From Alicyclobacillus kakegawensis NBRC 103104 (GTDB lineage: Bacteria; Bacillota; Bacilli; Alicyclobacillales; Alicyclobacillaceae): DNA of 42,186 nucleotides. The translations under genes and the position numbers were made by a program. Every line of letters begins with the position of its first letter. Position 1 is the first letter of the stretch. Under the pieces are notes generated by a model. It did not search any database. It was not told where the DNA came from and was given only the letters and a program-made list of their open reading frames with translations. Below are positions 9,313 to 11,279 of the stretch, piece after piece. The stretch covers positions 1 to 42,186 of the forward strand of contig NZ_BCRP01000022.1 in assembly GCF_001552655.1 (NCBI RefSeq). Reading direction: 5' to 3'.

Positions 9313-9365
9313 ATATGAATCCCCCTTCATGTATGAGTGCTGAGATACCATCTGGTGACACGTCT

Positions 9366-9394
9366 ACTCTACGAGGGGTGCAAGGCGGGGTCAA
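9366..9394 (-). promoter_or_regulatory. Promoter of the mtlARFD operon
   Basis: On the minus strand, TTGACC (9394-9389) and TAGAGT (9371-9366) are 17 bases apart, and the mtlA ATG is 53 bases downstream. The -10 box is imperfect, as expected for an MtlR-activated promoter. Upstream lies a GGCGCGCC palindrome (about 9413-9420). I cannot identify a confident MtlR or catabolite-control site. Confidence 0.65.
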
Positions 9395-9674
9395 CGCAAA
9401 CAAATTCAGAGCTGGCGCGCCGGTTGGCGACAAAACTGAAGAGAGTCATGGCAAGAGCACCACCTTCATTGCCCATCCTTTTGCCGTCAAACAGGTTGTA
9501 CCCCTGCTTCGCCCCAGAGAGGGGCAGACGGTGGGTGAGGGCTGTCCGTACCTAACGTGCTCCCGGACAGCAGGAATCATGTGGGTTCAGGAAAGGAAAG
9601 TGGAGAAGCGGAGATTATTAGGGCCTAGGCCCGTCCATCTGGTTAAAAATGGAACGCTGCGAGGTGGCTGGATT
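9395..9674. other. Divergent intergenic region between mtlA and the repeat-protein gene
   Basis: No gene is supported. It holds an 8-bp inverted repeat with a 15-base loop (9541-9548 with 9564-9571) and a perfect 12-base palindrome GGGCCTAGGCCC (9621-9632). Either could be an operator or a weak hairpin. Confidence 0.4.
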
Positions 9675-9704
9675 TGCATAACTTTGTCGGCCAAGCACAG
9701 ATTA
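9675..9704 (+). promoter_or_regulatory. Probable sigma-G (forespore) promoter
   Basis: TGCATA (9675-9680), 17 bases, CAGATTA (9698-9704) resembles the sigma-G pattern (about TGNATA, 17-18 bases, CATACTA; five of seven matches in the -10). It lies about 48 bases before the ATG of the repeat protein. There is no good sigma-A promoter in this stretch. Late sporulation control is an inference that agrees with the SASP-like protein. Confidence 0.45.
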
Positions 9705-9751
9705 GGTGAGAGGTCTCATGATCTCGCACGAAAATAAGGGGAGGACTGGAA

Positions 9752-10489
9752 ATGCACCAGGCTCTGCAAGAACTGCAGCAAATCCGCTCGATTTGCCAGC
9801 AGCTGGCGGCCGACGAACAGCACAACGCGCAGATACTCCAACAGTCGCCGACGGGCGCGACGATGGCGGCGAAAGAATCTCAAGCCGCACAGCAGCTCCA
9901 GCAATGTGTCCAACTGTGCGACCGGATTGCACAATCGATTCAGCAGTCCAGTCTGCAAACCAACCAGTTTGCGGGGTATGCACCGTTTGCCCAACAAAAT
10001 CCGTCCCATCAACTCCAGCCGCAGACCTATTCGTCCGCCGCTGTGCAACAGGTGCTGCAGGCGGACCGGGGGACTGCGACCGACCGGCGCGAGGCCCCAA
10101 GCTACACCCATTACAGCTCCCAAGCTGCAGGCGCCCAATACGGACAAAACTTCGCGTCGAACACGGGTGTCCAGCAGGCGCTGCAGGCGGACCACCAGGC
10201 GACCGACTGGCGCGGACCGAGCCACACCAACTACAATGCCCGGCCGACCGCCCAGTTTGGCCACAGCTACGCTTCCAACACGGGCGTGCAGCAGGTGTTA
10301 CAGGCTGATCACCAGGCCACCGACCGACGCGAGGCCCCAAGCTACGCCAACTATAACGCTCCGACTAATGCGCCGTATGGGCAGAATTACGGCAACCCCG
10401 GCGTCCAGCAGGTGCTGCAAGCGGATCACCAAGCCACCGACCGCCGAGGCCCCAGCCAGGCGAATTACAACAGCCGCGCGTATCAGTAA
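9752..10489 (+). CDS. Glutamine-rich repeat protein resembling gamma-type SASP
   Basis: A 245-residue hydrophilic protein with no signal peptide or membrane segment. Residues 1-70 look like amphipathic, Gln-rich helix with two Cys (52 and 56). Residues about 98-245 consist of four units beginning VQQ(V/A)LQAD at 98, 140, 179 and 218, each continuing with QATDRR, a Pro-Ser, a NYN-type aromatic patch and then (Q/P)(Y/F)GQN(F/Y)ASN. This order recalls gamma-type small acid-soluble spore proteins, where FG.EFASET is followed by a Gln-rich NAQQVRQQN block, but the protease cleavage residues (TE before FA) are not conserved. The ribosome site AAGGGGAGG (9736-9744) is strong and a sigma-G-like promoter precedes it. 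A nitrogen-storage or coat-associated forespore protein is likely; a spore coat protein is the main alternative. Confidence 0.75.
   Translation: MHQALQELQQIRSICQQLAADEQHNAQILQQSPTGATMAAKESQAAQQLQQCVQLCDRIAQSIQQSSLQTNQFAGYAPFAQQNPSHQLQPQTYSSAAVQQVLQADRGTATDRREAPSYTHYSSQAAGAQYGQNFASNTGVQQALQADHQATDWRGPSHTNYNARPTAQFGHSYASNTGVQQVLQADHQATDRREAPSYANYNAPTNAPYGQNYGNPGVQQVLQADHQATDRRGPSQANYNSRAYQ
10043..10456 (+). repeat. Four tandem coding repeats of 117-126 bases
   Basis: The units start at 10043, 10169, 10286 and 10403 (codons for VQQ.LQAD) with spacings of 126, 117 and 117 bases. Units 2-4 share nearly identical DNA around GCAGGTGCTGCA and CACCAGGC, so the array arose by recent tandem duplication inside the gene and may vary in copy number between strains. 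Confidence 0.8.
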
Positions 10490-10509
10490 CTTTTCGTCTC
10501 AGCCGCATC

Positions 10510-10534
10510 GGCCGCCCGTGCCGGGCGGCCTTTT
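10510..10534 (+). terminator. Rho-independent terminator
   Basis: An 8-bp GC stem (10510-10517 with 10523-10530), 5-base loop and TTTT follow the repeat-protein gene by 20 bases. The SDR gene ends just beyond on the other strand, so the hairpin may also separate convergent transcripts. Confidence 0.85.
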
Positions 10535-10535
10535 G

Positions 10536-11279
10536 TCATTCGATATAGATCATCTTGCGCGTCATGCCACCGTCCAGCACCAGGTTGACACCTGTTAAGA
10601 AGTCGTTCGCGGGGTCGGTCAGATAAAAGCAAGCCCGGGCCACATCGCTTGGCCTACCTACCCGGCCCGCCGGGTGCTGAGCATGATCCGCCTGAGTCAG
10701 CGCGCCGTAATCACCTGTCTCAATCCACCCTGGACTGATACAGTTGACACGAATGCGCTTCGAGCCGAGGGAAACAGCCAGCGCGTGGGTGAGTGCCACA
10801 ATCCCGCCCTTGGACGCGGCGTAGGCTTCACTGTTGGGCTCGGACATCAACGCCCGCGTCGACGCGATGTTGACGATGGCGCCCCCCGTCTCCGGCATCC
10901 GTTTTGCCACCTCGCGCGCGCACAAAAACGCTCCCCGCAGGTTGGTCTCAAGCACCGCGTCCCACTCCTCCACAGTCAGTTCCAGCGGCGATTTCCAGAT
11001 GCCAATGCCCGCGTTGTTGATGAGAATGTCGATCCGCCCGAACCGGGCGGCGGCGGTTTCCGCCAGCCGTGTGACGGCCTCGGCCTGACGCACGTCACAG
11101 ACCACGGTCGTAACAGAGTCCGGAGATAGTTGGGCAGTCGCCTCGTCCAGCAGCTGCGCGTCTCGGTCGGCGAAGACGACGCGCGCCCCCGCCTCCACGT
11201 ATGCCGTTGCCACCGCCCGACCGATGCCCCTCCCGGCCCCGGTCACCAATACCACTTTTTCCGTGAATAGTCCTGCCAT
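10536..11279 (-). CDS. SDR family NAD(P)-dependent oxidoreductase
   Basis: Short-chain dehydrogenase of 247 residues. The cofactor motif TGAGRGIG (about 13-20), NNAG, the catalytic Ser region and YAASK (Tyr and Lys) are all present, as is the C-terminal LDGGMT segment. An Asp at the end of beta-strand 2 (VVFADRD) favours NAD. ATG 11279 is chosen because AAGGAGG lies 8 bases upstream; the open frame extends further but is not translated plausibly. It follows the MFS gene by 73 bases on the same strand and is probably cotranscribed. The substrate is unknown; 3-oxoacyl-ACP reductase-like or sugar/alcohol dehydrogenase activity are possibilities. Confidence 0.9.
   Translation of the reverse strand: MAGLFTEKVVLVTGAGRGIGRAVATAYVEAGARVVFADRDAQLLDEATAQLSPDSVTTVVCDVRQAEAVTRLAETAAARFGRIDILINNAGIGIWKSPLELTVEEWDAVLETNLRGAFLCAREVAKRMPETGGAIVNIASTRALMSEPNSEAYAASKGGIVALTHALAVSLGSKRIRVNCISPGWIETGDYGALTQADHAQHPAGRVGRPSDVARACFYLTDPANDFLTGVNLVLDGGMTRKMIYIE

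Follow-up and report, generated by a model that had tools for sequence, protein, structure and literature searches.

In the window, the 42,186-nucleotide stretch of DNA analysed here (contig C22 of the 3.42-Mb, 71-contig genome G000), we found that a 245-residue open reading frame of Alicyclobacillus kakegawensis, at positions 9752–10489 of the plus strand, belongs to a family of VMQADR...PSYRNYNTQ repeat proteins, a separate, uncatalogued and probably spore-associated family of Alicyclobacillus relatives. The gene, the family, its repeats, its N-terminal domain and the SASP-like promoters of its relatives are established at the level of sequence. As for the function, we tentatively favor a protein of the spore core, synthesized in the forespore, which would act as a filler or amino-acid reserve resembling gamma-type SASPs.

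Gene structure and repeat units

The features of the gene, in window coordinates, are as follows.

9675–9704, plus strand: candidate forespore-type promoter in the layout of the PWM, TGCATA (9675–9680), N14 and GCACAGATTA (9695–9704)
9738–9744, plus strand: strong ribosome-binding site GGGGAGG, read from the sequence and kept in A. shizuokensis and A. herbarius
9752–9961, plus strand: N-terminal domain, residues 1–70, containing Cys 15, 52 and 56 and modeled as a hairpin of helices (AlphaFold2, profile A3)
10034–10123, plus strand: repeat unit 1, core SAAVQQVLQADRGTATDRREAPSYTHYSSQ, following QTYSSA
10160–10243, plus strand: repeat unit 2, core NTGVQQALQADHQATDWRGPSHTNYNAR, with YGQNFAS ahead of the core
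10277–10363, plus strand: repeat unit 3, core NTGVQQVLQADHQATDRREAPSYANYNAP, with FGHSYAS ahead of the core
10394–10477, plus strand: repeat unit 4, core NPGVQQVLQADHQATDRRGPSQANYNSR, with YGQNYG ahead of the core
10510–10538, plus strand: terminator-like hairpin with a T-run, an all-GC stem of nine pairs (10510–10530) followed by TTTTGTCA

The gene is probably monocistronic; the stretch scanned for terminators contains three terminator-like sites against 1.7 expected from shuffles, and the site at 10510 has the longest stem. Among named species, the gene occurs in two closest relatives, A. shizuokensis and A. herbarius (taken as genomes G001 and G002, respectively), and the copy of the former is 86% identical to the window protein. 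The dN/dS ratio is 0.143 overall, with 0.115 in the N-terminal 70 codons and 0.150 in the remainder, and the window gene is therefore under purifying selection. Judged by this identity, this ratio and the occurrence of the repeat profile in 23 of the 59 genomes of the order, the gene and its repeats are not products of chance. The window genome also contains gpr and six PF00269 matches.

The original prediction of a protein with four units of 39–42 residues is borne out, since VQQ(V/A)LQAD is present in every unit, with unit starts 42, 39 and 39 residues apart; each unit then shows ATD(R/W)R and PS, and the repeats are also visible at the DNA level. The order aromatic-Gly-x-x-aromatic-Ala-Ser-Asn, predicted for all four units, was found only in units 2 (YGQNFASN) and 3 (FGHSYASN) and is absent from units 1 and 4, the latter reading YGQNYGNP. 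In A. herbarius the protein is built of five units; SAGISQVMQADRTAATDRREGPSYTNYNTQ is found in three of these, without the FASN step. Across the family, the conserved motifs are VM(Q/N/S)ADR and PSYRNYNTQ, and FASN is not conserved.

All four window units fit the family core VM(Q/N/S)AD(R/H)...PSYxNYNT, with a best E-value in the window genome of 7.1e-16, which is not independent because the window units helped to build the repeat profile. An independent check was provided by aligning the family proteins of f1, the taxonomic family of the window species, with those of its sister family f2, which gave a profile-profile probability of 98.6% (E 9.3e-16). A scan of 20 members (eight of alignment A1, nine of alignment A8 and three others) against Pfam and NCBIfam with hmmscan displayed no hit that exceeded a curated cut-off, the results beyond the first member of each alignment being E-values only. 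No title on a VMQADR-repeat family was found in the sampled part of the Alicyclobacillus spore and SASP literature.

Promoter elements, distribution and neighborhood

Forespore sigma factors read sequences of the GYATA-N14-GGnnACAnTA type. Because no usable printed letters of a sigma-F/G consensus were found, SASP genes were used to train a gapped PWM. The training set consisted of the upstream regions of 28 alpha/beta-SASP genes from the order, in which GYATA is followed, mostly after 14 nt, by GGnnACAnTA. A forespore consensus supplied the starting weights and the fit was seeded with it. Family genes were kept out of the training set. Of 31 SASP upstream regions available, three were dropped, L085 and L069 for a contig edge or wrong place and L095 as belonging to a distant genus, and the distant L096 was kept.

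Among the 17 f2 family genes, all 14 whose upstream regions were extracted (G037, G049 and G050 yielding none) have a PWM site 33–42 nt ahead of the start with a spacing of 14–16 nt, these 14 sites not being independent, as several of the species are closely related. In the shuffle tests, which leave out the genes of G042 and G053, no shuffle out of 100 attained the score of 11 of the twelve sites, and three did so for the remaining site. Compared with 237 neighbor genes as controls, ten of the twelve rank in the top 2.5% and the others at 5.5% and 6.3%; the control row for G037 was disregarded, its start being an internal Met. Outside f2, the gene of G285, from another family of the class, carries CGCATA-N14-GTACAAACTA within the top 0.4% of controls, and the member from the metagenome-assembled genome DeMMO6_24 (DeMMO) shows a fair match (1.7% of controls) 44 nt from its GTG start. 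No convincing PWM element was found for the f1 genes G016, G009a and G009b, or any for the three f118 genes; in f1, moreover, the element of G017 lies 91 nt from the start, and that of G008 is marginal, 2 of 100 shuffles and 16.5% of controls doing as well.

The window element itself, 47 nt ahead of the ATG, scores 5.4 bits, a value reached by 13 of 100 shuffles and by 17.7% of the 237 neighbor genes; two of this genome's SASP genes, L017 and L018, score 21.2 and 25.0 bits, both being in the training set. The element is kept at 16 of 16 positions in A. shizuokensis and at 15 of 16 in A. herbarius, as against 28 of 59 flanking positions, and its joint three-species score was reached by 14 of 2,000 column shuffles. 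No sigma-70-like site was detected on the plus strand of 9360–10700. The earlier proposal of a sigma-G-like promoter driving a new class of forespore protein gains support at the sequence level from the alpha/beta-SASP element in f2, a possible target of either sigma F or sigma G, and from the conservation of the weak window copy in three species. Forespore expression appears likely for the family and likely, though somewhat less so, for the window gene.

These promoters also bear on the coat protein mentioned in the original prediction, considered here as a structural protein of the coat or another outer layer, in which the hairpin would oligomerize and the Tyr/Gln-rich repeats would be cross-linked. 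Coat genes are transcribed in the mother cell by sigma E and sigma K, which makes this option less likely: the f2 genes and that of G285 have the alpha/beta-SASP element, although the several f1 genes and all three f118 genes that show no clear forespore element would suit a coat protein. We consider a coat role unlikely; the composition of the protein is taken up below.

The repeat profile was found in 6 of 41 genomes of f1 and 17 of 18 of f2, and the N-terminal profile A3 in 7 of the 41 f1 genomes. In a sample of the class, 13 of 299 genomes carry the repeat, and five of these 13 do not belong to the order: G273, G304 and G318 (all f118), G285 (f125) and G327 (f111). The full protein with N-terminal domain and repeats is present in four of these five, G327 having fragments only. 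Near-identical long units of the form ALxQVMQADRQPQ.QA.QPQPTYGAGYGAA occur at L033:4800–5333 in the subsurface genome Bacillota DeMMO6_24 and also in G327.

For comparison, PF04259, the Pfam profile of gamma-type SASPs, was matched in 58 of 151 genomes of a class sample, G000 included, and in none of 23 genomes comprising the 18 of f2 (17 carriers and G052) and five others, 22 of the 23 being repeat carriers. In f1 it was matched in only 3 of 41 genomes, through the window gene in G000 and G001 and through a different gamma-like protein in G006. The N-terminal domain is absent from 34 of the 41 f1 genomes, and PF04259 is also unmatched in 33 of these 34; most f1 genomes thus have neither protein, and the relation is therefore not a strict swap, neither protein being needed there. 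In PMC3236038, sspE is given as absent from A. acidocaldarius and K. tusciae, and PMC3533761 reports low SASP gene counts for both species.

No neighbor is conserved in f1 outside the genus, nor was an operon link found there. In f2, the family gene is part of a conserved block (L099–L110, L118), flanked by a pst phosphate ABC transporter, itself downstream of an alpha/beta-SASP gene, on one side and by an HtpX-like and a SpeD-like gene on the other, these names having been read by eye from the sequence rather than by profile search. In at least 15 of the 17 f2 genomes, the contig and strand of the family gene also carry an alpha/beta-SASP match at a distance of about 4–7 kb, with none for G042 and G053 among the matches listed. 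Synteny was discarded as a clue to function; the f2 block is conserved, but f1 shares no neighbors outside the genus. A separate observation concerns cluster c8, a conserved f2 neighbor that looks secreted by eye: its genes at L108:1539–2114 (plus strand) and L103:11280–11738 (minus strand) are the top two of the 237 control genes, with SASP-type promoter scores of 20.3 and 16.0 bits, and may also be forespore genes.

Likeness to gamma-type SASPs

The window protein resembles gamma-type SASPs (SspE; PF04259, TIGR01442) in its repetitive build, in its abundance of Gln, Ala, Asn and Ser, in the order FAS-x-T-x-x-QQ of two of its units, and in the forespore-type promoter of its relatives. It differs in that the family core is VMQADR...PSYxNYNT, whereas the gamma core is TNAQQVRQQNQ, in the lack of the EFASE GPR site, and in the predicted folded hairpin of 70 residues. 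The compositions also diverge, with Lys at 0.1% in the family versus 6.3% in 20 gamma-SASPs and Tyr at 6.0% versus 0.8%.

According to the original prediction, the protein looks like a divergent gamma-type SASP; in the case of true descent, a very divergent one would have acquired its N-terminal domain and been deprived of the GPR site. This was assessed with the two curated profiles, with an HMM of our own accompanied by reversed, residue-shuffled and dipeptide-shuffled controls, and with five profile-profile comparisons. TIGR01442 gave the window protein 28.7 bits (E 1.4e-6), near but under its cut-off of 30.65; PF04259, with a cut-off of 28.4, gave 30.2 bits in a six-frame search but only 18.1 bits by hmmscan. 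Hence, the comparison with gamma-SASP profiles that had been proposed earlier gave a divided answer. Among eight members, matches at E ≤ 1 were obtained for two with PF04259 and for three with TIGR01442. The PF04259 match lies at window positions 10118–10333, and, its score being method-dependent, annotation pipelines may or may not call the gene a gamma-type SASP.

Our gamma HMM was built from 20 gamma-SASPs, ten of 30 gamma-SASP loci having given no ORF by the pattern used. It scored the window protein at 20.6 bits, the best of 40 residue shuffles reaching −10.7. With whole proteins, five of 23 members exceeded all 40 residue shuffles (G000, 20.6; DeMMO, 0.6; G001, −1.3; G002, −16.5; G017, −20.7 bits), only the first two scoring above zero; G009a, G008, G009b and G037 were reached by 1–3 of the 40 shuffles, and the other 14 members by 7–40. 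With dipeptide-preserving shuffles, the tails that beat all 40 were those of G000 (22.1 bits), G001 (16.3), DeMMO (11.7, the third best score of the family), G002 (−1.7) and G009a (−5.8), that is, five of the nine f1-type members and five of 23 overall. The likeness thus extends beyond the window species to several f1-type repeat tails. The N-terminal parts did not stand out against the gamma HMM, 2–39 of 40 dipeptide shuffles reaching their scores, and none of the 14 f2 members beat all its shuffles with either whole proteins or tails, the scores being at or near shuffle level.

Such shuffles destroy the repeats, so that one weak likeness is counted several times, a fault from which profile-profile comparison is free. 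By hhalign, the probabilities against 13 gamma-SASPs were 0.1% for the repeat cores, 0.1% for the f2 proteins and 0.4% for the f1 proteins, the last with the N-terminal helix aligned. At the level of single units, with the FAS region included, 42 f1-type units against 36 gamma units gave 0.27%, matched by 5 of 50 column shuffles, the alignment falling in the expected register (FAS over SS, AQQV over lQQV); 38 f2 units against the gamma units gave 0.24% over six columns, matched by 1 of 50. As a positive control, f1-type units were compared with f2 units, which gave 97.9% (E 6.2e-13) and was matched by 0 of 50 column shuffles. Thus, the near-threshold profile scores, the shuffle-beating members and the register speak for descent from gamma-type SASPs; against it are the hmmscan score, the scarcity of positive whole-protein scores, the failure of all f2 members, the repeated counting in the shuffle tests, profile-profile values at column-shuffle level beside a strong control, and the lack of FASN conservation across the family. 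We regard such descent as very unlikely. Common ancestry is not demonstrated, and convergence in Gln/Ala/Ser-rich repeats would be the simpler reading.

A gamma-like repeat protein of G006 (L036; contig C18, about 43470–43865, minus strand) was noted in passing. It has 117 residues with TNxxQQVRQEI repeats and no EFASE germination-protease site, and its PF04259 matches of 23.2 and 22.5 bits are under the cut-off, f1 being otherwise without gamma-SASP matches apart from those in G000 and G001. It comes from the same taxonomic family as the window protein and likewise has repeats lacking EFASE, but it keeps gamma-type TNPQQVRQEI repeats and has no hairpin domain, and is a different protein.

N-terminal domain, composition and possible role

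AlphaFold2, run on six sequences, predicted a pair of helices at residues 2–30 and 36–70, with block pLDDT values of 85–96 for residues 1–60 and 76 for residues 61–70. The helical N-terminus of 70 residues that had been proposed is consistent with this model; its two Cys residues are in fact three, Cys 15, 52 and 56, kept in five, six and seven of eight aligned members, respectively. Conserved Cys chemistry was considered and dropped in view of this partial conservation and of three f2 members having no Cys at all. From residue 72 onward the confidence is low (mean pLDDT 49.4, pTM 0.31), which we read as predicted disorder of the repeat tail. Neither the N-terminal profile against PDB sequences (E ≤ 1) nor Foldseek against PDB chains (E ≤ 0.001) gave a match, and Pfam and NCBIfam contained no informative match to the domain.

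The composition was determined for 27 members, a set without the proteins of G042, G050, G053 and G327. They contain seven lysines in 5,298 residues, with 19.0% Gln, 11.7% Ser, 11.4% Ala and 6.0% Tyr, and Cys occurs in 24 of the 27. Richness in Gln and Tyr, the presence of Cys, a variable repeat number and fast-changing spacers are common in coat proteins, and all are seen in this family, in favor of the coat role introduced above; the near absence of lysine would, on the other hand, permit few Gln-Lys cross-links within the protein. As originally predicted, the germination-protease site is not conserved: neither E-[hydrophobic]-[ADGS]-[STAG]-E nor E-[FIY]-A-S-E was found in any of the 27 members, the latter being present in 20 of 20 gamma-SASPs, whose extraction pattern contained part of that site.

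A regulator or scaffold of the forespore, for instance one that forms low-complexity condensates or that associates with the chromosome or inner membrane, would account for the 18 invariant columns of the N-terminal domain among eight sequences, for the Tyr/Gly/Ser/Gln low-complexity linkers, and for the strong conservation of VM(Q/N/S)ADR and PSYRNYNTQ, of which a pure reserve has no need. The lack of a known partner domain in Pfam and NCBIfam, of an operon link in f1 and of a structural match argues against it, and we find this alternative doubtful. Also rather improbable is a new forespore protein class that forms a gel-like matrix of the spore core, in which hairpin oligomers bearing lysine-free, low-complexity Tyr/Gln tails, with VMQADR motifs as 'stickers', would replace gamma-SASP where sspE is absent.

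In the reading that we tentatively prefer, the window gene would encode a protein of the spore core whose synthesis in the forespore roughly coincides with that of the alpha/beta-type SASPs. The latter are short DNA-binding proteins with a GPR site; their promoter element has the same form and spacing as that of the family, within the same order, but their profile (PF00269) gives no match to the window protein. The predicted hairpin of residues 1–70 would probably serve for oligomerization or docking. Behind it comes the extended tail of VMQADR...PSYxNYNT repeats, predicted to be disordered, almost devoid of lysine and rich in Gln, Ala, Ser and Tyr. The most likely role of the protein would be that of a presumably abundant filler or amino-acid reserve of the spore interior. 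This is the job ascribed elsewhere to gamma-type SASPs, here performed without demonstrable common ancestry or a canonical GPR site; an amino-acid reservoir is itself put forward as a hypothesis for gamma-type SASPs in PMC8452069. Several points weigh against the forespore reserve, namely the weak window promoter, the f1 and f118 genes without a clear element, the f1 genomes that do without either protein, and the Tyr and Cys contents, which are unusual for a SASP. Because the canonical GPR site is absent from all 27 members, nothing accounts for the fast degradation that a reserve of the gamma-SASP kind should undergo when the spore germinates.

As a separate repeat family in a lineage reported to lack sspE, with SASP-type promoters in many members, these proteins are a candidate for an independent invention of the same job. 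Curated databases could define the VMQADR-repeat family before borderline matches label it 'gamma-type SASP'.
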